DNA of 64,000 nt from an uncultured Rhizobiaceae group bacterium. Lineage in GTDB: Bacteria; Pseudomonadota; Alphaproteobacteria; Rhizobiales; Rhizobiaceae. Position 1 is the stretch's first letter; each line of letters starts with the position of its first letter. Positions 3,495 to 45,623 of this stretch are shown piece after piece. The notes under the pieces are model-generated. The model searched no databases, was not told the DNA's origin, and was given only the letters and a program-made list of their open reading frames with translations. Location of the stretch: NCBI GenBank assembly GCA_937958815.1, contig CALGMR010000020.1:1-64000 (forward strand). The letters are read 5' to 3'. A program made the position numbers and the translations under genes.

Positions 3495-4455
3495 GATATT
3501 TTGCGTATAGAACACCAAGTGCACAGGAGGCTATTCGCGCTTCTGCACTGTCGGCGCGACTCGTCAGAATAACAGGCGCTTTCGCACCCACAACCAATCC
3601 GGCCGTCTCACTGCCAGCCATAAATGTGAGCGCTTTGAAGAATATGTTGCCGGCCTCAATCGTTGGCACAACCAGAATATCCGCGTCGCCCGCAACGGGT
3701 GACTCAATACCCTTCAGTTCTGCCGCCTCTTTGCTGACCGCGTTGTCCAAAGCGAAAGGACCATCAACCATTCCGCCCGTGATTTTACCCTGAGCTGCGG
3801 CATCTGCAATTGCACGCGCTTCCACCGAGGAGGGGATGGCAGGGTTCGGACTTTCGACAGCCGACAAAATTGCAGCCTTCGGCGTTTCAACACCCAACGC
3901 ACGCGCAAGATTGATCCCATTTTGAGTGATAGACATTTTATGATTTTCGGTCGGTGCAACATTCAATGCGGCATCAGTGATAATCACAGGACGATCCCAA
4001 GTTGGAATGTCCATGACAAAGCAATGGCTGGTGCGTTGAGACGTGCGCAAGCCATTTTCCTTGCGAATGACAGCAGCCAAATATGTGTCAGAATGAATAA
4101 AACCCTTCATCAAAACTTGAGCAGCACCTTCCACCACCAGATCAACACCGCGATGCGCCGCCTGCTCTTCAGTCTCAGCTTGGACAATCTCGAGACCGGA
4201 AATATCAAACCCCGCGTCCTTTGCGGTTTTCTCAATTCGGGTTTTGTCGCCCACCAATATGGGTACAATCAAACCTTCGTCACGGGCATCCAATGCGCCT
4301 TCCAAAGCTGTTGCTTCCTCTGGACAGATGACGGCAGTCTTCAACGGATCAAGTGGAGCACACATCGAAAGAAGTTTTGAAAAATGCGGGCGGGTTTCTG
4401 GTGTGATTTCGTGCACAATGGGCTCCAATTGTTCTTCTCCACTTTCACCATCCAT
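3478..4455 (-). CDS. Phosphate acetyl/butyryltransferase family protein
   Basis: An approximately 325-residue protein of the PTA/PTB family, which moves an acyl group between CoA and phosphate. Visible features are an N-terminal K.AVICPEEATALEGA..A..EGL..PILVGD block, GAAQVLMKGFIHSD, the central ITDAALNVAPT segment, a VDGPFALDNAVS loop and a C-terminal GNIFFKALTFMAG..TAGLVVGA.APVILTSRADS block. The length fits the short PTA/PTB type without an N-terminal DRTGG domain. The first ATG is at 4455; the frame continues up to a TTG at 4527 with unconvincing residues. Acetyl or butyryl preference cannot be told from sequence alone. No acetate kinase is adjacent. Confidence 0.85.
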   Translation of the reverse strand: MDGESGEEQLEPIVHEITPETRPHFSKLLSMCAPLDPLKTAVICPEEATALEGALDARDEGLIVPILVGDKTRIEKTAKDAGFDISGLEIVQAETEEQAAHRGVDLVVEGAAQVLMKGFIHSDTYLAAVIRKENGLRTSQRTSHCFVMDIPTWDRPVIITDAALNVAPTENHKMSITQNGINLARALGVETPKAAILSAVESPNPAIPSSVEARAIADAAAQGKITGGMVDGPFALDNAVSKEAAELKGIESPVAGDADILVVPTIEAGNIFFKALTFMAGSETAGLVVGAKAPVILTSRADSAEARIASCALGVLYAKYLSEQA

Positions 4456-32313: not shown

Positions 32314-32994
32314 CTAGTTGTGAAACGTTGCGAAATCCTCCAGCGCCGCACGTTCTGTCACCAGGCTGTTTTCAACCGCATCGGTATCTTCATAGCCAAT
32401 CGCCATGCCACAAATAACAGTTTCAATATCTGGAATATTCAACTGTGATTTGATCACATCTTGAAAATTGGCAAATGCCGCTTGCGGACAAGTGTGCAAA
32501 CCACGTCCACGGGCTGCAATCATAATGTTTTCCATGAACATGCCGTAATCGAGCCAAGAACCCATTTCCAAACGACTGTCCAGTGTGAACATCAAGCCCA
32601 CTGGCGCATCAAAAAATGTGTAGTTGCGGCCCAATTGTGCATGCATCTTGTCTTTGTCTTCACGGCCAATTTCAAGAATATTGTACAGATCCCAACCCAC
32701 TTTGCGGCGGCGACCAAGATAAGGCTCGGGAAAGACATCGGGATAGTATTTGTAAGCGCGCTTGCCGTTGTATTTCGGGTCATCATGAGCTTTCAAAACA
32801 GCCGCAGACAAAGCTTCTTTAGCTTCACCCGTCAAAACATGGACTTTCCAAGGTTGCATGTTGGTGCCCGACGGCGCGCGCGCTGCTGCATGTAGCATGT
32901 CACGAACCTCTTCATCTGCCACAGGTGTTGGCAAAAATGCCCGCACAGAACGACGACTTATAATGGCGTCGTCAACGATTTGCTTCTTGTCCAT
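32314..32994 (-). CDS. Nitroreductase family protein
   Basis: A 226-residue FMN-dependent oxidoreductase. It shows the N-terminal SRRSVRAFLPTPV motif that binds FMN phosphate, AARAPSGTNMQPWKVHVL, the NIMIAARGRGLHTCPQAAF helix, and the C-terminal ICGMAIGYED loop. These are typical of NAD(P)H nitroreductases in the NfsA/FRase group; the substrate may be a quinone, flavin or nitro compound. The start at 32994 is chosen over an upstream extension to 33075. It diverges from the cupin regulator and could share its operator. Confidence 0.9.
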   Translation of the reverse strand: MDKKQIVDDAIISRRSVRAFLPTPVADEEVRDMLHAAARAPSGTNMQPWKVHVLTGEAKEALSAAVLKAHDDPKYNGKRAYKYYPDVFPEPYLGRRRKVGWDLYNILEIGREDKDKMHAQLGRNYTFFDAPVGLMFTLDSRLEMGSWLDYGMFMENIMIAARGRGLHTCPQAAFANFQDVIKSQLNIPDIETVICGMAIGYEDTDAVENSLVTERAALEDFATFHN

Positions 32995-33092
32995 GAAATT
33001 TGGCCCGACTGCGTTTGCAACCACCTTTGACCAACCGCAAAAGAGAAACAAGGGAGCGCGTTTTGGAAATAGCAATCACCAAAACATGTTTC

Positions 33093-33119
33093 CGTGAAAT
33101 TTTGTTTGATTTTTTCACG
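33093..33119. promoter_or_regulatory. Inverted repeat, candidate operator of the cupin regulator
   Basis: CGTGAAA (33093-33099) and TTTCACG (33113-33119) are perfect half-sites spaced by 13 bases, centred about 50 bp before the regulator start. A separate ten-base palindrome, AAACATGTTT, lies at 33082-33091. Position and symmetry suit autoregulation by a dimeric XRE-family repressor. Confidence 0.55.
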
Positions 33120-33154
33120 AGAGTGATGTTTTCTCCACATTTGGAGGACTTTGC

Positions 33155-33745
33155 ATGGCTTTAGCCGCATCAATTCATGACCAAGAGTCTCAAAACGCCG
33201 AAGCGCTTGGCAATGATGTGCGAGGATTGCGCAAGTCTCGCGGCCTGACCCTGAATGAACTGGCTTTGAAAATCGGCCGTTCTGTTGGCTTTATTTCTCA
33301 GGTGGAACGCGGTTTGTCCTCACCCTCAATCGATGATCTGCGCGCCATAGCGTCTGCCTTGGACGTTCCCACCAGCTGGTTTTTTGCCCATGACGCCCAA
33401 GACGACAATGAACGTGGATTGGTGGTGCGGGCCAGCAGCCGCCGTGCTTTGGGCACACCAGAATCCGGGATTGTAGAAGAATTGCTGTCGCCCGATCTTG
33501 GTGGCTCTTTTGAAATGTTCCGTTCTGTTTTTCAGCCTGGCGCAGAATTGCCAAATGAAATCTATCGCGAAACCGAAGAAGCTGGATACGTGGTCTCTGG
33601 CCAACTCGACATTTGGATTGATGGAAAACACTTTCGTCTGATGGCGGGAGATTCTTTTCGGTTCGACCACAAGCCTTATCGCTGGAAAAATATGGGTGAA
33701 ACGCCCGCAATCGTTGTGTGGGTCGTCAGCCCACCCGTCTACTAA
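33155..33745 (+). CDS. XRE-family transcriptional regulator with cupin sensor domain
   Basis: A 196-residue protein. Residues 20-75 are a helix-turn-helix of the HipB/PuuR type (VRGLRKSRGLTLNELALKIGRSVGFISQVERGLSSPSI). Residues 115-190 are a Cupin_2 barrel (YRETEEAGYVVSGQLDIWIDG...LMAGDSFRFDHKPYRWKN) that probably binds a small ligand. Cupin XRE regulators often control amine, polyamine or sulfonate catabolism. GGAGG before the ATG is a strong start. It is 11 bp ahead of the first flavoprotein, so it is the first gene of the six-gene operon and its likely local regulator. Confidence 0.92.
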   Translation: MALAASIHDQESQNAEALGNDVRGLRKSRGLTLNELALKIGRSVGFISQVERGLSSPSIDDLRAIASALDVPTSWFFAHDAQDDNERGLVVRASSRRALGTPESGIVEELLSPDLGGSFEMFRSVFQPGAELPNEIYRETEEAGYVVSGQLDIWIDGKHFRLMAGDSFRFDHKPYRWKNMGETPAIVVWVVSPPVY

Positions 33746-33756
33746 GAGTAAAAACC

Positions 33757-36225
33757 ATGACCGAACAAAACACCCAAACCAAACTTCCATCTCATGCACG
33801 CGTCGTCATTATCGGTGGCGGTGTTGTGGGCGTTTCAGCATTGTATCATCTTGCCAAACTTGGCTGGAAGAATTGCGTGCTTCTTGAAAAGAACGAATTG
33901 ACCGCAGGCTCCACGTGGCATGCTGCGGGCAACTGCCCCAACTTTTCAAATTCATGGGCCGTTTTGAACATGCAGCGTTACGGACTGGAACTGTATCGCG
34001 GTTTAGCTGGCGAAGTTGACTATCCCATGAACTACCACGTGACAGGCTCCATTCGTTTGGCCCATTCCAAAGAACGTATGCAGGAATTTGAGCGCGTTTC
34101 TGGCATGGCCCGTTATCAGGGATTGAACGTCGACATTTGCACACCTGCAGAATTGCAAGAGCACAATCCATTTATGGAAACCCACGATCTTGTTGGCGGC
34201 ATGTATGATCCGCTGGACGGTGACATTGACCCCGCCCAGTTGACCCAAGCATTGGCCAAAGGTGCCCGTGACATGGGCCAAAAAATTGTGCGTTTTTGCC
34301 CAGCGACAGGGGTCAGTAAAAATGGTGATGAATGGACTGTTCACACAGAACAGGGCGACATCACTTGCGAATATGTCGTCAACGCAGGTGGTTATTACGC
34401 CCAGCGCATTGGTGAGTGGTTCAAACCATATGGTGGCCGCACCGTGCCGATGGTCGTGATGAGCCACCAGTATTTTCTCACAGCTGAAATTCCTGAACTG
34501 GAAGCATGGACCAAAGAAAAAGGTCATAAGCTTCCATTGGTTCGTGATGTGGATATTTCCTACTATCTGCGCCAAGATAAAAACGGATTAAACCTCGGCC
34601 CATATGAGAGAAACTGCAAAGCGCATTGGATCACGCCCGAAGATCCGATGCCAGACGATTTCTCGTTCCAGCTCTATCCAGATGATCTCGAACGCCTCGA
34701 ATTTTACATGGAAGATGCCATGGCGCGTGTGCCCATTCTTGGAACCCAAGGTGTTGAGCGCGTCATCAACGGCCCGATTCCATATGCGCCAGACGGCTTG
34801 CCACTCATTGGCCCAATGCCGGGTGTCAAAAATGCATTTGAAGCCCATTCCTTCACATTCGGCATTGCCCAAGGCGGCGGCGCAGGTAAAGTCTTGTCGG
34901 AATGGATCGTCAACGGCGCACCCGATTGGGACATGTGGGCAGTCGATCCCCGCCGCTATACAGGCTATGCCGACCACGACTATTCATTGGCCAAAGCATT
35001 GGAAACTTATGGTCACGAATACGCCATGCACTTCCCGCACCACGAATGGCCTGCTGGGCGCGACAAGAAACTGTCCGCAGTTCACGACAAGCTGAAAGAG
35101 CTGGGTGGACAAATGGGGGCCTATAATGGTTGGGAACGCGCCAACTGGTTTGCCAAAGAAGGTGACGACACATCCGAGGAGGCCACCCACACTTGGGAAC
35201 GCAACGGCCCATGGTTGCCCAGGGTGAAAGAAGAATGTGAAGCGGTGCGCGATGCCTGTGGCGTTCTTGATATGCCTGGTTTCTCACGCTTCAATTTGAA
35301 AGGTGAAGGAGCCGCTGATTGGCTGCGCAAACAAATCACTGGCGGCTTACCGAAAGTGGGTCGTTTAAACCTTGGCTATTTTGCCGACGACAAAGGGCGC
35401 ATAGTCACAGAAATGTCTGTTATCCGCCATGGCGATGACGATTTCACATTGATGACCGCAGCCGTTGCAGAATGGCATGATTTTGAATGGTTACAAAAAG
35501 CCCTGCCCGCGGATGGGTCAATCGCGCTCACAAACCACAGCACAGAATTTGCGGTGCTTTTGGTAACGGGTCCAACATCTCGTGACGTCATCTCTTCGAT
35601 TGCTGACGAAGCCGATTTGGAATCCGGTTGGCTCACCCACAACAAAGCAAAGATTGCAGGCACAGACTGTGCCTTGGCGCGCGTGTCCTTTGCTGGTGAA
35701 CTGGGTTGGGAGATTCATGCAAAGACGGAAGACATTCCAACACTATATGACGCCGTTCTTGGCGCAGGTGCAAAACCGTTTGGCATGTACGCTCTAAACT
35801 CATTGCGTCTGGAAAAAAGCTACCGCACCTGGAAAGGTGATCTGTCCACTGACTACACAATTCTGGAGGGCGGCATAGAACGTTTTGTGCGCTGGCAGAA
35901 AGAAGATTTTGTCGGCAAGGCAGCAATGGAGCAAGAAAAACAACAAGGCGTGAAAAAAGGCTTCGTCACAATGATTGTCGAAGCAGGTGATTTCGATGCG
36001 CCATATATGTCGACAATCTGGGATGGTGACACTGTCGTTGGTGAAACAACGTCTGGCGGCTGGGGCCATCGGATCAACAAGTCCATTGCCCTTGGCGTGG
36101 TCAAATCAGAATTTACCAAACCTGGGACAGAACTTGAAATCGAAATGTATGGCGAACGCTACAAAGCCACCGTTCAAGAAGACAAACCCCTTTGGGATGC
36201 GGACAACGAACGCATTCGCGCTTAA
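33757..36225 (+). CDS. DMGDH/sarcosine-dehydrogenase-like flavoprotein with GcvT domain (1)
   Basis: An 822-residue protein. Residues 15-400 are a D-amino-acid-oxidase-type FAD domain (VVIIGGGVVGVSALYHLA). His55 in the STWHAAG motif corresponds to the covalent FAD-histidine of dimethylglycine dehydrogenases. The C-terminal half is an aminomethyltransferase (GcvT) domain (GVLDMPGFSRFNLKGEGA, SFAGELGWEIH, SLRLEKSYR.WKGDL) that captures the released one-carbon unit on tetrahydrofolate. Residues after WHAAG (GNCPNFSNSW) differ from the second copy, so the substrates probably differ. The reaction is likely oxidative N-demethylation. Confidence 0.9.
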   Translation: MTEQNTQTKLPSHARVVIIGGGVVGVSALYHLAKLGWKNCVLLEKNELTAGSTWHAAGNCPNFSNSWAVLNMQRYGLELYRGLAGEVDYPMNYHVTGSIRLAHSKERMQEFERVSGMARYQGLNVDICTPAELQEHNPFMETHDLVGGMYDPLDGDIDPAQLTQALAKGARDMGQKIVRFCPATGVSKNGDEWTVHTEQGDITCEYVVNAGGYYAQRIGEWFKPYGGRTVPMVVMSHQYFLTAEIPELEAWTKEKGHKLPLVRDVDISYYLRQDKNGLNLGPYERNCKAHWITPEDPMPDDFSFQLYPDDLERLEFYMEDAMARVPILGTQGVERVINGPIPYAPDGLPLIGPMPGVKNAFEAHSFTFGIAQGGGAGKVLSEWIVNGAPDWDMWAVDPRRYTGYADHDYSLAKALETYGHEYAMHFPHHEWPAGRDKKLSAVHDKLKELGGQMGAYNGWERANWFAKEGDDTSEEATHTWERNGPWLPRVKEECEAVRDACGVLDMPGFSRFNLKGEGAADWLRKQITGGLPKVGRLNLGYFADDKGRIVTEMSVIRHGDDDFTLMTAAVAEWHDFEWLQKALPADGSIALTNHSTEFAVLLVTGPTSRDVISSIADEADLESGWLTHNKAKIAGTDCALARVSFAGELGWEIHAKTEDIPTLYDAVLGAGAKPFGMYALNSLRLEKSYRTWKGDLSTDYTILEGGIERFVRWQKEDFVGKAAMEQEKQQGVKKGFVTMIVEAGDFDAPYMSTIWDGDTVVGETTSGGWGHRINKSIALGVVKSEFTKPGTELEIEMYGERYKATVQEDKPLWDADNERIRA

Positions 36226-36245
36226 AGGCTGTAAAGGTAAATCAG

Positions 36246-37145
36246 ATGGCAAATATTGTGCTTCTTGATGGTGGTATGGGTCAAGAATTGATCGCTCGAT
36301 CTGCCAATCCACCATCACCATTGTGGTCTGCAAACGTGATGATGAACGAGCCGGATATTGTTGAGGCCGTACATGCAGAATATGTCAAAGCAGGTGCCAA
36401 GGTCTTAACTCTAAACACGTATTCCGCAACGCCAGAAAGGTTGGCGCGGGATGCGAGTGAAGATTTGTTCGAGCCGCTACAGGCAAAAGCCGTTGAGATC
36501 ATAGAAACCGCTTCCGCCAATTCTGACGTCACTTTGGGCGGATGTTTGCCTCCTTTGTTTGGCAGCTATCATCCAGAACATGCGCCTGACGAAGGAACGT
36601 GTTTGGAAACTTATCGTCAAATCGTGGCTCTGCAAGCGCCCCATGTGGACGTATTTATCTGCGAAACGCTTGGGTGTTTGCGGGAAGTTCGCGCAGCCGT
36701 TAGGGCCTGTGTCGAAACGGGTGTTCCCGTTTGGTGTGGAATGACAGCCATGGACGCCAACGGATCATTGTTACGCTCTGGTGAGACAGTTGAAGAGGCT
36801 GCACAGAGTGCCAAAGATCTTGGCGCCGCAGCGGTCGCGATAAACTGCTCGTGGCCAGAAGCTGTGACACAAGCTTTGCCTGAACTGGCCAAAACAGGCC
36901 TGCCGTTTGGCGGTTGGGCCAACGGTTTCAGCAATGCTGGTGCTGATCTGGCACTGGGTGGAACGGTGGACGGTATGGGCAAACGCAACGACCTTGATCC
37001 AGACAATTACGCAAATCACGTCATGAAATGGGTCGATAATGGCGCAACACTCGTTGGCGGCTGCTGCGAAGTCGGCCCCGCACATATTCAAAAAATTGCT
37101 GAACAGTTGAAGGCGGCTGGACACACACTTGTAGGGAATTTTTAA
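36246..37145 (+). CDS. Homocysteine S-methyltransferase (BHMT-like)
   Basis: A 299-residue zinc-dependent methyltransferase. It begins NIVLLDGGMGQELI and has the three zinc cysteines: Cys201 in AINCSW, and Cys273-Cys274 in VGGCCEVGP. It transfers a methyl group from a donor (glycine betaine, S-methylmethionine or a similar compound) to homocysteine, giving methionine. In a cluster with dimethylglycine-dehydrogenase-like enzymes the betaine reaction is likely, releasing dimethylglycine for the neighbours. The start at 36246 follows GTAAATCAG and fits the family N-terminus; upstream residues to 36192 do not. The next gene starts directly after its stop codon. Confidence 0.9.
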   Translation: MANIVLLDGGMGQELIARSANPPSPLWSANVMMNEPDIVEAVHAEYVKAGAKVLTLNTYSATPERLARDASEDLFEPLQAKAVEIIETASANSDVTLGGCLPPLFGSYHPEHAPDEGTCLETYRQIVALQAPHVDVFICETLGCLREVRAAVRACVETGVPVWCGMTAMDANGSLLRSGETVEEAAQSAKDLGAAAVAINCSWPEAVTQALPELAKTGLPFGGWANGFSNAGADLALGGTVDGMGKRNDLDPDNYANHVMKWVDNGATLVGGCCEVGPAHIQKIAEQLKAAGHTLVGNF

Positions 37146-39608
37146 ATGACAACCGACAAGAAAACCGTTCCCTCAAAAGCCCGCGCTGTCGTCGTTGGTG
37201 GCGGAGTGGCAGGGTGTTCAGTGGCCTACCATCTGGCCAAACAAGGCTGGAAAGATGTTGTTTTGCTGGAACGCAAACAATTGACCTCGGGCACCACATG
37301 GCATGCTGCTGGATTGATCGCACAGTTGCGCGCGACAAAAAACATGACGCGCTTGGCAAAATACAGCCAGGAACTTTACGGCGAGTTGGAAGCAGAAACA
37401 GGCGTGGCGACCGGCTTTCGCCGATGCGGTTCTATCACCGTGGCTCTCACGGATGAACGAAAAGAAGAAATCTTGCGCCAAGCCTCTATGGCGCGAGCTT
37501 TCGGGGTGGATGTAGATGAAATTTCTGCCGCTGAAGTGAAAGAAAAATATCCGCACCTCAACGTCGAAGACGTAACAGGCGCAGTCTATCTGCCCCTTGA
37601 TGGGCAAGGCGACCCTGCAAATATCGCTTTGGCTTTGGCCAAGGGCGCGCGCATGAATGGCGCCAAAGTGTTGGAAGGTATCAAAGTCACCGACATTCAC
37701 AAAGCCGACGGTCGGGTAACAGGGGTCTCTTGGTCGCGTGATGGGTCTGATGAAGTGGGAACCATTGAAGCCGATTGCGTCGTCAATTGCGGCGGCATGT
37801 GGGCCCATGAAGTGGGTCGCATGGCAGGCGTTACCGTACCGCTTCACGCTTGCGAGCATTTTTACATTGTCACCGAAGGCATTGAGGGCTTGAAGCAGCT
37901 TCCAGTTCTTCGTGTGCCTGATGAATGTGCCTATTACAAAGAAGACGCCGGCAAAATGTTGCTTGGTGCTTTCGAACCCGTGTCAAAACCGTGGGCGATG
38001 AACGGAATTCCGGACGATTTCTGCTTTGATCAATTGCCGGAAGACTTTGACCATTTTGAACCCATTTTGGAAAAAGCAGTAAGCCGCATGCCTATGTTGG
38101 CAGAAGCTGGCATTCACACGTTTTTCAATGGACCTGAGAGTTTCACACCTGATGATGCATACCACTTGGGAGAAGCTCCAAATCTTGATGGCTTCTGGGT
38201 CTGTGCAGGGTTTAACTCTATCGGCATTCAATCATCAGGCGGTGCAGGCATGGCACTGGCGCACTGGATGGAACATGGTCATCCGCCATTTGATATTGGC
38301 GATGTGGACATCCGCCGCATGCAACCATTCCAAGGCAACAAAACCTATTTGTTTGAACGTGCGAAAGAAACGCTTGGCCTGCTTTATGCAGACCATTTCC
38401 CCTATCGCCAAATGGCAACAGCACGGGGAGTGCGTCGCACACCATTTCATGAACACTTGAAAGCACAAGGCGCTGTCTTTGGTGAGGTGGCGGGCTGGGA
38501 ACGCGCCAACTGGTTTGCAGACGAGGGGCAAAACCCCGAATACAAATATTCGTGGAAACGACAAAACTGGTTTGATAACGCAAAACATGAACATGAAGCT
38601 GTGCGCAGCAATGTGGGCATGTATGACATGACCTCATTCGGCAAATTACGCGTTGAAGGCCGCGATGCGGAAAAATATCTCAACTACATTTGTGGCAATG
38701 ATGTTTCCGTACCTGTTGGCAAAATCGTCTACACGCAATTTTTGAACAACCGTGGCGGAATAGAAGCCGATGTCACGGTCACCCGCTTGTCAGAAACTGC
38801 CTATATCGTGGTGACACCTGCAGCGACAGTGCAACGTGAATTGCAATGGATGCGCAAACATTTGGGCGACCATAATGTGGTGATCACAGACACCACTTCA
38901 GCAGAAGGTGTTCTTGCGGTCATGGGCCCCAATGCACGCAAGCTTTTGGAAAAAGTATCTCCCCATGACTGGTCAAACGAAAATCATCCGTTCGGGCAGG
39001 CTCACGACATTGAGCTCGGCATGGGCCTCGCCCGTGCTCACCGTGTGACATATGTGGGCGAACTGGGTTGGGAATTGTATATGACCAGCGATATGGCCGC
39101 ACATGCTTTCGAAACACTTCATGAAGCAGGCAAAGAGCTTGATCTGAAACTCTGTGGAATGCACATGATGGATTCTTTGAGGATCGAAAAAGGGTTCCGG
39201 CACTTCGGCCACGACATCACCGAAGAAGATCATGTTTTGGAAGCTGGTCTCGGGTTTGCCGTCAAAACTGCAAAAGAGAACTTCATCGGCCGCGACGCTG
39301 TTCTGGCCAAAAAAGAATCCGGCCTAGAGATGCGCATGGTTCAGTTCAAACTGAAGGATGCTGAACCGATGCTTTATCACAATGAACCCGTGATCCGCGA
39401 TGGCGAGATCGTCTCTTACATCACCTCCGCCAATTATGGGCACACACTGGGTGGGGCCATTGGCATGGGTTATGTGCCATGCGCTGGTGAAAAACCTGAC
39501 GAGGTTCTCGCTTCCAAATATGAGATAGAAATCGCTGGTGTTCGTGTGGAAGCTGAAGCAAGCTTGCGTCCAATGTATGACCCCAAATCGGAACGTGTAA
39601 GAGCGTAG
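37146..39608 (+). CDS. DMGDH/sarcosine-dehydrogenase-like flavoprotein with GcvT domain (2)
   Basis: An 820-residue paralogue of the protein two genes upstream, with the same architecture. It has a FAD domain (AVVVGGGVAGCSVAYHLA), a TTWHAAGLIAQLRAT segment with His53 as the likely covalent FAD site, and a C-terminal GcvT domain (GMYDMTSFGKLRVEGRDAEKYL, VTYVGELGWELYM, SLRIEKGFRHFGHDI). The GLIAQLRAT.NMT.LA.YS..LY..LE.ETG stretch is closer to classical sarcosine/dimethylglycine dehydrogenases than copy 1. It starts at the base after the methyltransferase stop, with AGGGAA as its site, so expression is coupled. Confidence 0.92.
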   Translation: MTTDKKTVPSKARAVVVGGGVAGCSVAYHLAKQGWKDVVLLERKQLTSGTTWHAAGLIAQLRATKNMTRLAKYSQELYGELEAETGVATGFRRCGSITVALTDERKEEILRQASMARAFGVDVDEISAAEVKEKYPHLNVEDVTGAVYLPLDGQGDPANIALALAKGARMNGAKVLEGIKVTDIHKADGRVTGVSWSRDGSDEVGTIEADCVVNCGGMWAHEVGRMAGVTVPLHACEHFYIVTEGIEGLKQLPVLRVPDECAYYKEDAGKMLLGAFEPVSKPWAMNGIPDDFCFDQLPEDFDHFEPILEKAVSRMPMLAEAGIHTFFNGPESFTPDDAYHLGEAPNLDGFWVCAGFNSIGIQSSGGAGMALAHWMEHGHPPFDIGDVDIRRMQPFQGNKTYLFERAKETLGLLYADHFPYRQMATARGVRRTPFHEHLKAQGAVFGEVAGWERANWFADEGQNPEYKYSWKRQNWFDNAKHEHEAVRSNVGMYDMTSFGKLRVEGRDAEKYLNYICGNDVSVPVGKIVYTQFLNNRGGIEADVTVTRLSETAYIVVTPAATVQRELQWMRKHLGDHNVVITDTTSAEGVLAVMGPNARKLLEKVSPHDWSNENHPFGQAHDIELGMGLARAHRVTYVGELGWELYMTSDMAAHAFETLHEAGKELDLKLCGMHMMDSLRIEKGFRHFGHDITEEDHVLEAGLGFAVKTAKENFIGRDAVLAKKESGLEMRMVQFKLKDAEPMLYHNEPVIRDGEIVSYITSANYGHTLGGAIGMGYVPCAGEKPDEVLASKYEIEIAGVRVEAEASLRPMYDPKSERVRA

Positions 39609-39616
39609 GAACCAAC

Positions 39617-40447
39617 ATGGATCAAGAAGACAAAGGCAAAATTTTTCGCGAGCTGCACCAACCCGGGAACCCTTTTATTATGGCCAACGCCTATGATGTG
39701 GGATCGGCCAAAATGTTAGCTGCTATGGGGGCAAAGGCCATTGCCACCACAAGTGCAGGTTTTGCCTTCACAGTTGGCGAACCCGACGGCGCCATTGTCT
39801 CACGAGATCAAATGCTGGACCATTGCGAAGACATCGTTCGTGCAGTGAATCTTCCCGTTTCGGGAGATTTAGAAAATGGTTACGCGGACGACCCCGACGG
39901 TGTTGCCGAGACGATTATGCTGGCAGCCGAGGTCGGTATGGTTGGGTGCTGCATAGAGGACACAACATTTGAAGAAGGCAAACCTGCTTACGATTTTGAT
40001 GTGGCCGTAGAACGCATTCGCGCTGCCGTTGATGCTGCAGAAAGCTTACCATTTGATTTCACACTCTGCGCCCGTGCAGATGGCGTGATGATCGGGGCGT
40101 ATGACACGGCAGAAGCAATCGCTCGGTGTCAGGCTTTCGAAGAGGTTGGCGCTCACGTTGTTTATGCACCCGTTTTGCCGACCATGAATGATGTTGCCAC
40201 GCTCTGCGCATCTGTTTCTGTTCCAGTGAACGTCTTGTGCGCAGGATCAAACACCAAGTTTTCAAAAACAGATTTTGCCAAAGCGGGCGTGGGGCGCATC
40301 TCAATTGGCTCAGCTTTAGCTCGAGCGACCCATCGGGTCGTTCTGGAGGCTGGTCATGCCATGTTGGATGATGGAGATTTTTCACTATTGAGTCGCAGTG
40401 TTTCAGGTGACGAAATAGATCGCATGCTCAAAGGGAGCGGCGCCTAA
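39617..40447 (+). CDS. Isocitrate lyase/PEP mutase family protein
   Basis: A 276-residue TIM-barrel enzyme of the ICL/PEPM superfamily. It shows PFIMANAYDVGSAKMLAAMGAKAIATTSAGFAFTVGEPDG, GDLENGYADDPDGV, IEDTTFEEG and FTLCARADG. The motif order matches the large uncharacterised branch that acts on 2-keto or tricarboxylic-type C-C bonds; it lacks the KKCGH signature of true isocitrate lyase. AGGAA precedes the start, eight bases after the flavoprotein gene. Its role in an amine-demethylation operon is unclear; it could cleave or decarboxylate a carbon skeleton released after demethylation. Confidence 0.88.
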   Translation: MDQEDKGKIFRELHQPGNPFIMANAYDVGSAKMLAAMGAKAIATTSAGFAFTVGEPDGAIVSRDQMLDHCEDIVRAVNLPVSGDLENGYADDPDGVAETIMLAAEVGMVGCCIEDTTFEEGKPAYDFDVAVERIRAAVDAAESLPFDFTLCARADGVMIGAYDTAEAIARCQAFEEVGAHVVYAPVLPTMNDVATLCASVSVPVNVLCAGSNTKFSKTDFAKAGVGRISIGSALARATHRVVLEAGHAMLDDGDFSLLSRSVSGDEIDRMLKGSGA

Positions 40448-40475
40448 GATTTCATTTGTTGTTTGGGAGAATGAC

Positions 40476-42044
40476 ATGAGCAATGCAGAAACAGCTCCAG
40501 CCAGAAGCGCTCGTTCAGGAGGTCGCGCCGCAAGAAGGGCTGTTCGCGCTGCCCCTTTGACCGAAGATATAAAACCCGTTCGCGCGGGGATGGAGGGTGG
40601 CGAATACAAACCCCTGTCAGATTCCGATGTGCAAAAAGTTCATGAAGCCGTTTTAGATGTTCTGGAAAACATTGGGCTGTCCCAAGCCACACCCACATGC
40701 ATTGCAGCATGTGAAAAGCTGGGAGCCATCATGGGCGACGATGGTCGTCTGCGTTTCCCACGTCATGTGGTCATGGACACAATAAAGAACGCGAACCGCA
40801 ACATGACGGTTCATGCCCGTGACCCAAAATATGATATCCACCCCCAGGGCGAGAAAGTGCATTTTGGAACCGCTGGCGCAGCAGTTCACATTGTTGACGT
40901 TGAAAAGAACGAATACCGTGAGAGTTACCTTCGCGACATTTATGATGCTGCCCGCATTGTTGAAGGTCTCGACAACATTCACTTCTTCCAGCGCCCCATG
41001 GTTGCACGGGATTTGCCAGATCCACTCGATCTAGATCTCAACACGCTCTACGCATGTCTGGCTGGCACCACCAAACATATAGGCACCTCCTTTACCTTGG
41101 CAGAATATGTGCCAGATGCCTTGAAAATGATGTACAAAATGGCAGGAGGCGAAGACGCATTTCGCGCAAGACCATTTGTCTCCAACTCAAACTGCTTTGT
41201 GGTGCCACCACTCCGGTTCGCACCAGATGCCACCGACGTTTTAGAAGCGTGCGTTTATGGCGGAATGCCTGTCCTTTTACTTTCTGCCGGACAAGCTGGT
41301 GCCACTTCTCCAGCCGCAATTGCTGGCGCAGTCGTACAAGCCGTTGCTGAAGTTCTTGCTGGTTTGGTCTTCGTCAATGCCCTCGTTCCAGGTCATCCGG
41401 CTATTTTTGGCACTTGGCCATTTGTTTCGGACCTGCGCACCGGTGCCATGTCTGGCGGCTCTGGCGAACAAGCGTTGCTCACAGCTGCTTGTGGCCAGAT
41501 GGCGAATTTCTATGATCTTCCTGGTGGGTCAGCTGCAGGGATGTGCGATGCCAAAACACCTGACATTCAAGCCGGGTGGGAAAAGGGCATAGCCTATGTG
41601 CTTGCGGGGATGGCTGGAACTAACATGATTTATGAAGCTGCAGGCATGCATGGCTCTCTCATGGGGTTCTGTCTTGAAAGTCTGTTTCTTGACAATGACG
41701 CATTGGGCCAGGCCTTACGATGTGTTCGCGGGATTGAGGTGAATGACGAGACACTGAGTATAGATGCGATGCGAGATGTTTGTGTGGATGGCCCGGGCCA
41801 CTATCTTGGCCACGGTCAAACCCTTGATCTGATGCAAAAGGAATATCTTTATCCTGATCTTGCCAATCGGTTTAGCCCAAAAGAATGGGCTGAACTGGGC
41901 AAACCAGATATCGTTCAACTAGCCATTGAGCGTAAAAAGAAGGTGTTGGCAGAATTCTTCCCAAACCATGTGGATCAGGAAACCGATGATTGGCTTCGCC
42001 AGGAGTTCAATATCTGTTTGCCGAAAGAGCAAATGAGACCGTAG
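40476..42044 (+). CDS. Trimethylamine methyltransferase (MttB) family protein, non-pyrrolysine
   Basis: A 522-residue member of the MttB superfamily, whose archaeal founders move a methyl from trimethylamine to a corrinoid protein using pyrrolysine. This frame has no internal TAG, so it is a non-Pyl member like the glycine betaine methyltransferase MtgB. Recognisable blocks are VHEAVLDVLENIGL, GGSGEQALLTAACGQMANFYDLPGG and DAKTPDIQAGWEKG. A basic, arginine-rich N-terminal segment (residues 8-30) is unusual. A good ribosome-binding site (GGGAGAA) precedes the ATG. No corrinoid protein or RamA gene is in the window, so the methyl acceptor is unknown. It is the last gene of the operon. Confidence 0.88.
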   Translation: MSNAETAPARSARSGGRAARRAVRAAPLTEDIKPVRAGMEGGEYKPLSDSDVQKVHEAVLDVLENIGLSQATPTCIAACEKLGAIMGDDGRLRFPRHVVMDTIKNANRNMTVHARDPKYDIHPQGEKVHFGTAGAAVHIVDVEKNEYRESYLRDIYDAARIVEGLDNIHFFQRPMVARDLPDPLDLDLNTLYACLAGTTKHIGTSFTLAEYVPDALKMMYKMAGGEDAFRARPFVSNSNCFVVPPLRFAPDATDVLEACVYGGMPVLLLSAGQAGATSPAAIAGAVVQAVAEVLAGLVFVNALVPGHPAIFGTWPFVSDLRTGAMSGGSGEQALLTAACGQMANFYDLPGGSAAGMCDAKTPDIQAGWEKGIAYVLAGMAGTNMIYEAAGMHGSLMGFCLESLFLDNDALGQALRCVRGIEVNDETLSIDAMRDVCVDGPGHYLGHGQTLDLMQKEYLYPDLANRFSPKEWAELGKPDIVQLAIERKKKVLAEFFPNHVDQETDDWLRQEFNICLPKEQMRP

Positions 42045-42130: not shown

Positions 42131-42161
42131 CTAAACTTTCATTTGGGATTCACATCATCCG

Positions 42162-45100
42162 ATGGCTATCAAAAAAATTCTTGTCGCAAACCGTTCTGAA
42201 ATTGCAATTCGTGTTTTCCGCGCTGCAAATGAGCTAGGTCTGAAAACTGTCGCCATCTGGGCGGAAGAAGACAAGTTAGCCCTCCATCGGTTCAAAGCGG
42301 ATGAAGCCTATCAGATCGGGTCAGGCCCACATCTTGCCAAAGCAATGGGACCGATTGAAAGTTATCTTTCTATTGATGAAGTTATCCGTGTTGCAAAACT
42401 GTCTGGCGCCGATGCCATTCACCCAGGTTACGGCCTTTTGTCCGAAAGTCCGGAATTTGTTGACGCCTGCGAAGAGGCGGGAATCACATTCATTGGACCA
42501 AAAGCCGAGACCATGCGATCCCTTGGCAACAAAGTGGCGGCCCGAAATCTCGCAATCGCTGCAGGCGTACCAGTTGTTCCAGCAACAGACCCGTTGCCAG
42601 AAGATCTCGATGAAATTAAAAAAATGGCCGAGAAAATTGGCTATCCCATTATGCTCAAAGCATCTTGGGGTGGTGGCGGTCGCGGCATGCGCACCATTCG
42701 CTCTGCAGAAGACCTGGAAAATGAAGCTCTGGAAGCACGCCGTGAAGCGCGCGCAGCTTTTGGCAAGGACGAAATTTATCTCGAAAAATTGGTTGAACGC
42801 GCACGCCATGTGGAAGCACAAATTCTGGGTGATGGCCAAGGCAAAGCAGTTCACCTGTTTGAACGTGACTGCTCCGTGCAACGCCGCAACCAAAAAGTGG
42901 TTGAACGGGCCCCTGCTCCATATCTGAGCGAAGAGCAACGCCAAGAGCTTTGTGGCTATGCTCTCCAAATTGCCAATGAAACAAATTATCTAGGTGCAGG
43001 CACAGTCGAATTCCTTATGGATATCGACACTGGCGCGTTTTACTTCATCGAAGTCAATCCACGCGTGCAAGTGGAGCACACGGTCACCGAAGAGGTGACT
43101 GGCATCGATATTATCAAGGCGCAAATCCACTTGGTGGATGGGCACAAAATCGGAACGCCTGAATCAGGTGTGCCGGAACAAGAAGACATCAAACTGAACG
43201 GCCATGCTCTCCAGTGCCGGATTACGACAGAAGATCCCGAACAGAATTTCATTCCCGATTACGGCCGCATTACCGCCTATCGCGGAGCCACTGGTTTCGG
43301 CATTCGTCTGGATGGCGGTACAGCCTATTCAGGTGCAGTGATCACCCGATTCTATGATCCACTTCTTGAGAAAGTGACGGCGTGGGCACCGACATATCAA
43401 GAAACCATTAAGCGTATGGACCGTGCCTTGCGCGAGTTCCGTATCCGAGGTGTCGCCACCAACCTGACATTCCTCGAAAACATCATCACGCACCCGAGTT
43501 TCTTGGACAACACGTACACAACAAAGTTTATCGACACGACGCCTGAACTGTTTGACAAAGTGAAACGCCGCGACCGCGCCACGCGCTTGTTGAATTACAT
43601 TGCCGATGTTTCTGTAAACGGGCACCCTGAAGCGCGCGATCGCGCCCGCCCACCTGCAAATTTGCCGACGCCAAAGGCCCCATGGTTCGAAAATAAAATT
43701 AAGGACGGCACACGCCAACGTTTGGAAAAAGATGGGCCTAAAGCATTTTCGAAATGGATGCGTAATCAGAAACAAGTTTTGCTCACAGATACAACCATGC
43801 GCGATGGACACCAGTCTTTGTTGGCAACCCGCATGCGCACCCATGACATTGCAGCTGTCGCTGGAGCATACGCGAAGTCGCTGCCCGAATTGTTATCACT
43901 GGAGTGTTGGGGGGGTGCCACTTTTGATGTGGCCATGCGTTTCCTCACCGAAGATCCATGGGAGCGTCTGGCGTTGATCCGAGATCGCGCTCCAAACTTA
44001 TTATTGCAAGCACTGGTGCGCGGTTCCAACGGTGTTGGTTATACGGGGTATCCTGACAACGTGGTCAAACATTGGGTGCACGAAGCAGCCAAAGGCGGTG
44101 TAGATATTTTCCGAGTATTCGATTCCCTCAATTGGGTCGACAATATGCGGGTCTGCATGGATGCCGTTTTAGAAACAGACAAATTGCTGGAAGCAACGAT
44201 TTGTTACACTGGCGATTTAATGGACAAGAACCGCAGCCAGTATGATCTCAAATACTATCTGAATATGGCAGAAGAGCTGGACAAAGCTGGCGCACATATT
44301 ATTGCCATTAAAGATATGGCTGGCCTTTTGAAGCCAGCAGCAGCGCGAGAATTGTTCCCCGCTTTGCGTGAAGTTACAGACCTGCCAATTCATTTCCACA
44401 CCCACGACACATCCGGCATTTCTGCAGCCACCGTGTTGGCAGCCGTTGAATCTGGTGTGGACGCTGTCGACGCAGCTATGGATTCGCTCTCCGGCGGCAC
44501 ATCACAACCCTGTCTTGGTTCAATCGTGGAAGCCTTACGCGGTTCAGAACGTGACCCTGGTTTAGATGCGGACGCCATTCGTCAAATTTCTTTGTATTGG
44601 GAAGCTGCTCGCGCCCAATATGCGGCCTTTGAAAGCGACGTGAAATCTCCTGCATCTGAGGTTTATCTTCACGAAATGCCTGGCGGCCAGTACACCAATT
44701 TGAAAGAACAGGCACGGTCCCTAAAACTCGACACCCGCTGGAACGAAGTTGCCAAGGCCTATGCCGAAGTGAACGACATGTTTGGTGACATCGTGAAAGT
44801 AACGCCATCCTCTAAAGTGGTGGGCGATATGGCACTGATGATGGTCAGCCAAGACCTCACACGCGAAGAAGTCGAAGATCCGAACAAAGATATTTCGTTC
44901 CCGGAATCAGTGGTCTCGATGATGAAGGGCGATTTGGGCTTTCCAAAACAAGGCTGGCCTGAAGCATTTCAGAAGAAAGTCTTGAAAGGCGAAGCGCCGC
45001 TCAAAGACAGAGTTGGCGCTTTGATGGAACCAGCTGATTTAGATGCTGAACGAAAGACAATTGATGGTGTTTTAGGACGTCCGGTTACAGATACTGAATT

Positions 45101-45623
45101 TGCTTCTTATCTCATGTATCCGAAGGTCTTCACCGATTACGCACTCGCGCGCAGTACATATGGACCAACATCCACACTGCCCACCCCTGTCTACTTCTAC
45201 GGCATGGAACCGGGCGATGAGGTGATGATCGAAATTGAACAAGGCAAACTTCTTGTTGTTCATTGTTTGGCTGTCTCCGAAATGGACGATCAAGGCATGG
45301 TCACCGTGTTCTTTGAACTCAACGGCCAGCCGCGTCGTGCGCGCGTTCCAGATCGTCTGCGCGGTGCTGATTCAATCGTCGTGCGTCCAAAAGTCGACGC
45401 GGGTGACAGCAAACAAATCGGCGCGCCAATGCCAGGTGTTGTCTCCACGATCATGGTTGAAGTTGGTCAGGAAATCGCCGCTGGCGATGTGCTCCTGTCC
45501 ATCGAAGCTATGAAAATGGAAACCGCACTCCACGCTGAAACCGACGGTGTGGTCGCTGAAGTTCTCGTCAAACGCGGTGACCAGATTGATGCAAAAGATT
45601 TGCTGGTGCGCCTTGAGGGATAA
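42162..45623 (+). CDS. pyc: Pyruvate carboxylase
   Basis: An 1153-residue biotin enzyme that makes oxaloacetate from pyruvate and bicarbonate, refilling the TCA cycle. Domain order: biotin carboxylase (about 1-450, with KASWGGGGRGMR and FIEVNPRVQVEHTVTE); carboxyltransferase (about 540-810, with DTTMRDGHQSLLATRMRT and the metal histidines in HFHTHDTSG); a tetramerisation region; and a C-terminal biotinyl domain with Lys1118 in EAMKMET. All catalytic motifs are intact and the length is normal. It follows the demethylation operon by 117 bp but is probably separate. An SDR gene follows after 21 bp. Confidence 0.98.
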   Translation: MAIKKILVANRSEIAIRVFRAANELGLKTVAIWAEEDKLALHRFKADEAYQIGSGPHLAKAMGPIESYLSIDEVIRVAKLSGADAIHPGYGLLSESPEFVDACEEAGITFIGPKAETMRSLGNKVAARNLAIAAGVPVVPATDPLPEDLDEIKKMAEKIGYPIMLKASWGGGGRGMRTIRSAEDLENEALEARREARAAFGKDEIYLEKLVERARHVEAQILGDGQGKAVHLFERDCSVQRRNQKVVERAPAPYLSEEQRQELCGYALQIANETNYLGAGTVEFLMDIDTGAFYFIEVNPRVQVEHTVTEEVTGIDIIKAQIHLVDGHKIGTPESGVPEQEDIKLNGHALQCRITTEDPEQNFIPDYGRITAYRGATGFGIRLDGGTAYSGAVITRFYDPLLEKVTAWAPTYQETIKRMDRALREFRIRGVATNLTFLENIITHPSFLDNTYTTKFIDTTPELFDKVKRRDRATRLLNYIADVSVNGHPEARDRARPPANLPTPKAPWFENKIKDGTRQRLEKDGPKAFSKWMRNQKQVLLTDTTMRDGHQSLLATRMRTHDIAAVAGAYAKSLPELLSLECWGGATFDVAMRFLTEDPWERLALIRDRAPNLLLQALVRGSNGVGYTGYPDNVVKHWVHEAAKGGVDIFRVFDSLNWVDNMRVCMDAVLETDKLLEATICYTGDLMDKNRSQYDLKYYLNMAEELDKAGAHIIAIKDMAGLLKPAAARELFPALREVTDLPIHFHTHDTSGISAATVLAAVESGVDAVDAAMDSLSGGTSQPCLGSIVEALRGSERDPGLDADAIRQISLYWEAARAQYAAFESDVKSPASEVYLHEMPGGQYTNLKEQARSLKLDTRWNEVAKAYAEVNDMFGDIVKVTPSSKVVGDMALMMVSQDLTREEVEDPNKDISFPESVVSMMKGDLGFPKQGWPEAFQKKVLKGEAPLKDRVGALMEPADLDAERKTIDGVLGRPVTDTEFASYLMYPKVFTDYALARSTYGPTSTLPTPVYFYGMEPGDEVMIEIEQGKLLVVHCLAVSEMDDQGMVTVFFELNGQPRRARVPDRLRGADSIVVRPKVDAGDSKQIGAPMPGVVSTIMVEVGQEIAAGDVLLSIEAMKMETALHAETDGVVAEVLVKRGDQIDAKDLLVRLEG

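Follow-up and report, generated by a model that had tools for sequence, protein, structure and literature searches.

What does a bacterium break down with two dimethylglycine-dehydrogenase-like flavoproteins, a homocysteine methyltransferase, an MttB-family methyltransferase and a protein of the ICL/PEPM superfamily encoded in a single row? The question is raised by a stretch of 64,000 nucleotides (hereafter, the window) from an uncultured Rhizobiaceae bacterium, positions 1 to 64,000 of contig CALGMR010000020.1 in assembly GCA_937958815.1 (our genome G000: 3.2 Mb, 92% complete, 22 contigs). Six plus-strand genes lie within 33155-42044, coding in order for an XRE-cupin regulator, a first flavoprotein resembling dimethylglycine dehydrogenase (DMGDH), here called DMG1, a homocysteine methyltransferase (HMT), a second flavoprotein (DMG2), the ICL/PEPM protein and MttB. 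A preliminary description had seen here a compact six-gene operon of methylated-amine demethylation families with intergenic gaps of 11, 20, 0, 8 and 28 bp; open reading frames and Pfam domain matches bear out both layout and families, with the first coding base at 33155 and the start given previously (33093) falling in the upstream region. The operon is genuine and conserved, and it combines known enzyme families in a new way. We propose, with a probability of about 0.5, that it demethylates N-methylated taurines (taurine betaine, N,N-dimethyltaurine and N-methyltaurine) stepwise and feeds the taurine/sulfoacetaldehyde pathway, whose genes lie elsewhere in the genome. The basis of this reading is the content and conservation of the gene set, the genomic association of DMG2 and MttB with xsc, and phylogenetic placement.

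The gene xsc encodes sulfoacetaldehyde acetyltransferase, an enzyme of taurine breakdown. The first pointers to sulfur came from the neighbourhoods of operon relatives: on the megaplasmid of Ruegeria pomeroyi DSS-3, a row of MttB (SPO_RS21400), aminotransferase and two flavoprotein genes ends in an Xsc-like enzyme (401 bits, cut-off 620), and in locus L036 a taurine-type ABC transporter and xsc adjoin DMG2. We searched separately for MttB, DMG2, ICL/PEPM and HMT in one set of 151 genomes of the family, splitting orthologs from lower matches at gaps in identity (floors of ~53%, ~61%, ~52% and ~44%, respectively) and dropping the latter. In this set, xsc (TIGR03457, above cut-off) was present in 42 genomes. 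Among the 35 genomes having both genes, the DMG2 ortholog lay at most 12.5 kb from xsc in 12, belonging to 9 genera, against ~0.2 expected by random placement, and at most 6 kb from it in 7. As a control, DMGDH-like paralogs (42-57% identity) were found near xsc in none of 22 genomes, in a partial list that comprised the best 6 candidates per genome (E up to 1e-200) and included one at 15.8 kb in G071. MttB was close to xsc in 6 of 29 genomes and ICL/PEPM in 2 of 19. Two MttB fragments of G130 and the second copies present in two genomes are not included in these counts, whereas the DMG2 fragments of G086 and G089 are.

A repeat, for which the limits were set in advance, covered 384 other alphaproteobacteria. 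DMG2 (at least 61% identity) occurred in 38, xsc in 46 (one below-cut-off fragment, in G237, being retained) and both in 22; in two of these the distance was at most 12.5 kb (0.15 expected, Poisson P 0.011). In one (G477), xsc and DMG2 are 56 bp apart on the same strand by match coordinates, and a MocR-type gene and aminotransferases are nearby; in the other (G259), at 1.1 kb, DMG1-DMG2 face pta-xsc. Paralogs, again a partial control with the best 2 candidates per genome and the same E values, were near xsc in 0 of 21, counted over genomes having xsc. Moreover, 22 of the 38 DMG2 genomes carry xsc vs 46 of the 384 overall, a difference that chance would hardly produce when relatedness is left aside. 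The link thus extends beyond the family, though at lower frequency. It supports the earlier suggestion that a betaine other than plain glycine betaine, with a skeleton that is subsequently degraded, is the probable substrate.

The layouts of the linked loci point in the same direction. One stretch of G109, G012 and G115 holds xsc, pta, DMG2, DMG1, XRE, a MocR-type regulator, tauABC-type genes and a set of molybdoenzyme genes, with no MttB or aminotransferase match found in it; in these three genomes, regulator-DMG1-DMG2 lies between xsc-pta and taurine-type transporter genes. We take the MocR protein of these taurine-type loci to be TauR and the molybdoenzyme to be SoeABC; the NCBIfam labels are PdxR-like MocR for the former and, for the molybdoenzyme of the window genome itself, PhsA, below cut-off. 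DMG2 stands beside xsc and tauABC-type genes in G121 and G019. In G058, the neighbours of DMG2 and of a distant DMG1-like gene (38%) are tauABC-type and MocR-type genes, an aminotransferase and xsc. In the marine isolate Paracoccus seriniphilus DSM 14827, XRE, ABC transporter, cupin, DMG1, DMG2, EtfB, FAD-binding protein, folD and purU genes adjoin an annotated xsc (935.6 bits), the best models for the transporter being TauB and TauC, below cut-off. Two full six-gene operons share this setting: that of L065 faces xsc, a class I aminotransferase, an enoyl-CoA hydratase-like gene and a choline sulfatase, and that of L050 an xsc-like gene end, a taurine-type transporter and the same three kinds of gene, its xsc being 12.1 kb from DMG2.

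Phylogenetic analysis places the window on branches where such loci occur. In the DMG1 tree, it belongs to an 11-row clade (100/100 support) with 4 taurine-linked rows, vs 2 of the 45 other rows (Fisher P 0.011, the rows not being independent). In the DMG2 tree, its 28-row clade contains 7 taurine-linked and 0 hydroxyproline-type rows. The taurine label needs 8 changes on this tree, so the taurine link recurs. Both trees omit 20 Mesorhizobium rows, 5 duplicates and sequences below 700 residues; the DMG2 tree also omits L177, and the DMG1 tree lacks L065, whose DMG1 is split, and has one Sinorhizobium meliloti row twice. L268 was labelled as taurine-linked by hand, and matches to TauB and TauC, below cut-off, later lent this label support.

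The operon itself is conserved in pieces. Orthologs of MttB, DMG2, ICL/PEPM and HMT were found in 61, 70, 24 and 17 of the 151 family genomes. Where both members of a pair were present, HMT and DMG2 lay at most 6 kb apart in 16 of 16 genomes, MttB and DMG2 in 26 of 56, MttB and ICL/PEPM in 10 of 17, DMG2 and ICL/PEPM in 11 of 20, and MttB and HMT in 6 of 16; all four occurred together in 5 of the 151. This clustering is not due to chance. A scan of named genomes with an HMT profile, of which the best 80 loci were kept, gave DMG2 in 43, DMG1 in 41, XRE in 38, MttB in 8, ICL/PEPM in 5 and all six genes in 4; these figures come from a later recount, the HMT of some loci having been missed by the gene choice of the first layout. 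From these varying co-occurrence counts it follows that DMG2 is the hub to which MttB, HMT and ICL/PEPM are attached in varying sets. The six genes do co-occur in relatives, in the same order in other genera, and most relatives with the HMT module lack an MttB next to it. Mesorhizobium has the order XRE-DMG1-HMT-aminotransferase-DMG2, and S. meliloti a LysR-type regulator, DMG1, DMG2 (two pieces in that strain) and MttB. In G082, of the same genus as the window genome, DMG1-HMT-DMG2-ICL are on one contig and MttB is on another; the MttB part is therefore separable.

The protein families fit successive demethylations. DMG1 and DMG2 each carry DAO, FAO_M, GCV_T and GCV_T_C domains, all four above cut-off, and their nearest solved relatives are human DMGDH (565 bits) and DMGDH 4P9S (456 bits), respectively. 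DMG1 retains the TWHAAG motif, the histidine of which carries FAD in DMGDH. MttB is an open frame of 522 amino acids with no internal stop or in-frame amber codon, scores 351.5 bits against the pyrrolysine trimethylamine methyltransferase model TIGR02369 (cut-off 525) and has the glycine betaine methyltransferase 9YCE/2QNE as nearest solved relative. In-frame stops were flagged in some MttB relatives; in L095, the single case checked, stops occur only at the end.

HMT had been taken for a betaine-homocysteine methyltransferase (BHMT), an identity that we reject on model scores and nearest relative: it reaches 75.8 bits with the bacterial BHMT model NF005718 (cut-off 338) vs 137.2 with MmuM (NF007020; under its cut-off of 215 and top among the five models listed), its best models being MmuM and MmuM-type bifunctional proteins, and Escherichia coli MmuM (5DML) is its nearest PDB relative both by single sequence and by a 13-row profile. 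Its cysteines C201, C273 and C274 (N-C-S and GGCC motifs) are invariant in 13 of 13 aligned rows and are, we assume, the zinc ligands of the PF02574 family. Because HMT is not a BHMT, the earlier argument that two alternative first steps stand side by side here loses force. The ICL/PEPM protein scores far below cut-off with all NCBIfam lyase and mutase models, including that for isocitrate/methylisocitrate lyases (TIGR02317: 78.9 bits, cut-off 354), and its nearest solved relative is 4LSB, an unnamed 'lyase/mutase'. On these scores we rejected both an isocitrate/methylisocitrate lyase and a PEP-mutase; its sequence also has no KKCGH-type loop, which we take to be the catalytic motif of the former lyases. 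In L261, L262 and L265 its gene follows a class I aminotransferase, a pairing that hints at a 2-oxo acid. Outside the operon, it also follows a glutathione-S-transferase-like gene, named by eye, in L254, L257, L258 and L266. None of its contexts elsewhere (glutathione-transferase-like, class I aminotransferase or sulfatase genes) yielded a function.

On this basis, the operon might work as follows. MttB would move one methyl group of the trimethylated compound onto the shared corrinoid protein of the cell, HMT perhaps serving as a second methyl outlet, to homocysteine. DMG1 would oxidise one methyl of the dimethyl compound (tertiary to secondary amine) and pass it to tetrahydrofolate as methylene-folate, and DMG2 would do likewise with the monomethyl compound (secondary to primary amine), again yielding methylene-folate. 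The taurine thus released would be converted to sulfoacetaldehyde, which Xsc would cleave to acetyl phosphate and sulfite; the XRE-cupin protein may sense the substrate. The enzymatic steps are assigned from family membership, and we infer their order, the substrate, the roles of HMT and ICL/PEPM and the regulation. The window genome does encode an Xsc (G000:C16:28427-30157, 939.7 bits, cut-off 676.4), beside a MocR-type regulator and molybdoenzyme genes. The preliminary description had suggested that the carbon skeleton may have to be cleaved as well; such cleavage is better explained by this Xsc than by the ICL/PEPM protein. Overall, that first interpretation is partly supported, its scheme of one methyl passed to homocysteine and two to folate being conjectural.

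Several observations weigh against taurines as substrates. The xsc gene of the window genome is on a different contig from the operon, near which no taurine genes were found: tblastn with Xsc, TauABC and related proteins over the whole window gave two weak ATPase-type matches (31-36%) and one phosphate-acetyltransferase-like (PTA-like) match at 3508-4341. HMT is close to xsc in 1 of 9 family genomes, and none of the best 80 HMT loci, including the four full six-gene loci, contains xsc. The distance and identity limits behind the 12 of 35 family genomes were chosen after seeing the data, in related genomes and ignoring contig breaks, and outside the family the proximity amounts to 2 of 22. Taurine-type transporters score below curated cut-offs throughout. 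In P. seriniphilus, a gene annotated as choline dehydrogenase and TRAP genes lie beyond xsc, an order that we assume to be that of isethionate-use loci. L113 and L050, which also have all six genes in their operons, carry DMG1 proteins that fall outside the clade of the window. To these must be added the loci in which relatives of the cassette accompany genes for other compounds.

On a rival reading of such loci, the cassette is generic and the window's operon would act on a different substrate from that of its taurine-linked relatives, for which hydroxyproline betaine, beta-alanine betaine, choline-O-sulfate or a further compound would be candidates. In Sinorhizobium americanum (L274), a DMG2 relative is accompanied by genes for a glycine-betaine/proline ABC transporter, a proline-racemase-family protein, a DHDPS-family protein and an aldehyde dehydrogenase, and Agrobacterium tumefaciens (L271) has a similar setting without the racemase gene; we take both to be hydroxyproline-betaine loci. 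(A very short MttB-family CDS, of 288 bp, is annotated nearby in L271.) Plasmid pRL31b4 of Rhizobium leguminosarum (L270) has EtfBA-DMG1-DMG2 followed by the omega-aminotransferase AptA (714.7 bits, cut-off 500), a candidate beta-alanine-betaine or related locus, and the pairing of ICL/PEPM with class I aminotransferases elsewhere fits such substrates too. However, the DMG2 proteins of these three loci belong to a different clade from that of the window, and ICL/PEPM genomes tend to carry xsc (19 of 24). We consider another betaine an unlikely substrate.

We consider it rather unlikely that the operon is a second glycine betaine route, in which MttB (or HMT) would produce dimethylglycine, DMG1 sarcosine and DMG2 glycine, the xsc link reflecting gene islands for osmolytes. 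The resemblance of DMG1 and DMG2 to DMGDH and the nearest solved relative of MttB are consistent with it, as are choline-sulfatase genes near the cassette in L050, L065 and L202/L253, the last with betA, betI, betC and choline-binding-protein genes above cut-offs and betB above one of two models. Likewise, betA, betI, betC and choline-binding-protein genes that exceed their cut-offs and a betB-type gene in G004, and a genuine betA in G150, lie between xsc and MttB-DMG2, as would suit glycine betaine or choline sulfate. Against this, the cassette of G109, G115 and G012 stands among taurine-type genes with no BetC match, other choline genes not having been searched for there, and contig C1 of the window genome groups another MttB gene with genes for a B12-binding protein and a second PF02574 protein in a stretch of ~8 kb, further DMGDH-like genes being present in the genome. 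Of the B12-binding proteins of this genome, one is the neighbour of the C1 MttB and one is on C13. Since the C1 set resembles the published glycine-betaine system MtgBCDE, glycine betaine is probably handled there.

BetC-type choline-sulfatase genes recur near MttB or ICL/PEPM in several genera (L050:7175-8701, L065:5081-6604, L202:5768-7294; near ICL/PEPM in L262 and L265), and choline-O-sulfate is close in shape to taurine betaine.

Finally, the scheme of the preliminary description, in which HMT would act first and pass one methyl of the quaternary amine to homocysteine, MttB being a parallel route, appears improbable, for although HMT accompanies DMG2 wherever the family genomes have both, and a GbcA-like Rieske oxygenase shares an operon with MttB in three other relatives as if first steps had been exchanged, HMT is MmuM-like rather than BHMT-like and occurs without DMG genes in halophilic gammaproteobacteria, in L119 beside an amino-acid-type ABC transporter, which suggests S-methylmethionine use.

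Hydroxyproline-, beta-alanine- and choline-type loci exist besides the taurine loci, and therefore the cassette is portable as a family, while only the window's own branch points to taurine. More tentatively, and at somewhat less than even odds, a portable DMG1-DMG2 cassette with exchangeable first steps (MttB, MmuM-like HMT or GbcA-like Rieske oxygenase) may open N-methylated taurines, and other betaines in other lineages, to known skeleton pathways. Marine bacteria would thereby possess a complete and hitherto undescribed route that converts taurine betaine to acetyl phosphate, sulfite, ammonium and C1 units. The Rieske oxygenase gene is located between DMG2 and MttB in L192 (11145-12374) and L197 (10517-11746) and after MttB in L196 (12997-14226); that of L197 scores 261 bits with the GbcA model (cut-off 670). 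Its presence in one operon with DMG1-DMG2-MttB looks as if two chemistries for one first demethylation had been kept together.

Other variants were seen in passing. A small PNPOx-type protein is encoded between DMG1 and HMT in L094 (9207-9662, by Pfam match), and a protein alike by eye in L065 (14805-15260). L038 and L042 keep the operon order (L042 without HMT) and have DMG1 swapped for a distant paralog (37% identity), with DMG2, ICL/PEPM and MttB staying close; this might be a substrate switch. In the halophilic gammaproteobacterium Vreelandella utahensis (L119, 10001-14195), the HMT subgroup stands alone beside the amino-acid-type transporter, a locus possibly for S-methylmethionine use. 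No pattern emerged from the plasmid genes that flank HMT relatives in Limimaricola, Salinivibrio and Dinoroseobacter.

Coordinates of the operon and its flanks are collected below. Upstream, a nitroreductase-family gene similar to the divergent one of the window occupies the same position in L110, L113, L117, L178 and Mesorhizobium loci. A consensus scan found no sigma-70-type match in the region ahead of the first gene. Across the scan, 5 promoter-like sites (shuffles 7.8 +/- 2.8) and 18 terminator-like sites (shuffles 11.9 +/- 2.8) were counted, with no plus-strand terminator-like site in the gaps between the six genes, which is weak evidence. The top NCBIfam match of the regulator, PuuR, is far below cut-off. 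Downstream, the pyruvate carboxylase gene is probably not part of the operon; it adjoins MttB in L110, L113, L117 and L035, but no such gene was found next to the operons of L050 and L065. The PTA-like match mentioned above is on the minus strand, ~29 kb from the operon, and is 45% identical to an L109 protein encoded between DMG2 and xsc.

Table 1. Features of the operon region, in window coordinates.
Feature	Position	Strand	Evidence and remarks
Nitroreductase-family gene	32317..32994	-	Divergent from the operon, probable conserved neighbour; sub-cut-off BluB and nitroreductase matches
Operon upstream region	33076..33154	+	Ribosome-binding-like GGAGGA ahead of the first ATG, read directly
XRE-cupin transcriptional regulator	33155..33745	+	HTH_3 and Cupin_2 above cut-off (Pfam)
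DMG1, dimethylglycine-dehydrogenase-like flavoprotein with folate domain	33757..36225	+	Pfam; proposed tertiary-amine step
HMT, zinc-type homocysteine S-methyltransferase, MmuM-like	36246..37145	+	PF02574, 197 bits
DMG2, second DMGDH-like flavoprotein	37146..39608	+	Pfam; proposed last N-demethylation
ICL/PEPM-superfamily protein (PEP_mutase)	39617..40447	+	PF13714, 246 bits
MttB-family methyltransferase without pyrrolysine	40476..42044	+	PF06253 (MTTB), 384 bits, cut-off 25; proposed quaternary-amine:corrinoid step
Pyruvate carboxylase (named by eye), next gene	42162..45623	+	117-bp gap after the operon; promoter-like match 42149-42178

The proposed substrates exist in nature. Trimethyl-, dimethyl- and monomethyltaurine have been described as co-occurring with taurine in a red alga (PMC10538540), and taurine betaine has been reported from corals, being abundant in some (PMC5557254). 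Among the open-access papers listed by our searches, we found no description of a gene route from methylated taurines to taurine or of a link between demethylation and xsc. Weinitschke and others reportedly described, in 2006, bacterial use of N-methyltaurine by dehydrogenation, with release of methylamine. If our reading is correct, DMG1-DMG2 beside xsc would be a marker gene pair for a hidden marine flow of organic sulfur, nitrogen and C1 units, one demethylation cassette would be reused for different betaines, and a substrate class would be available for part of the MttB-family genes left open by Mausz et al. (2025).

Among the closest known systems is MtgBCDE, the glycine betaine demethylase and split methionine synthase shown genetically in R. 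pomeroyi (Mausz et al. 2025, PMC12478193). According to that work, up to seven pfam06253 genes occur per genome with no assigned substrates, and other substrates are suggested; its main text makes no mention of taurine. As in MtgBCDE, the MttB of the window lacks pyrrolysine, belongs to an aerobic alphaproteobacterium and is expected to use a shared corrinoid protein. Unlike it, the window operon is without MtgC, MtgD and RamA genes and encodes a pair of DMGDH-like flavoproteins together with an MmuM-like enzyme and an ICL/PEPM protein. Taurine dissimilation loci have tauXY as an alternative to tpa. The cassette is repeatedly found within or beside loci of the tauABC, tpa and xsc type, as described in PMC10356861; known taurine loci start from free taurine, whereas here a demethylation cassette is added, in the window on a separate contig from xsc. 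With DMGDH of the mitochondrial type (4P9S, 5L46), DMG1 and DMG2 share domain order, FAD motif and folate domain; they differ in being two paralogs in one operon, and the relation is too distant for a transfer of substrate. HMT, for its part, shares fold family and zinc cysteines with MmuM (5DML), but constitutes a subgroup of its own (GGCCE) that is tied to DMG2 in alphaproteobacteria.

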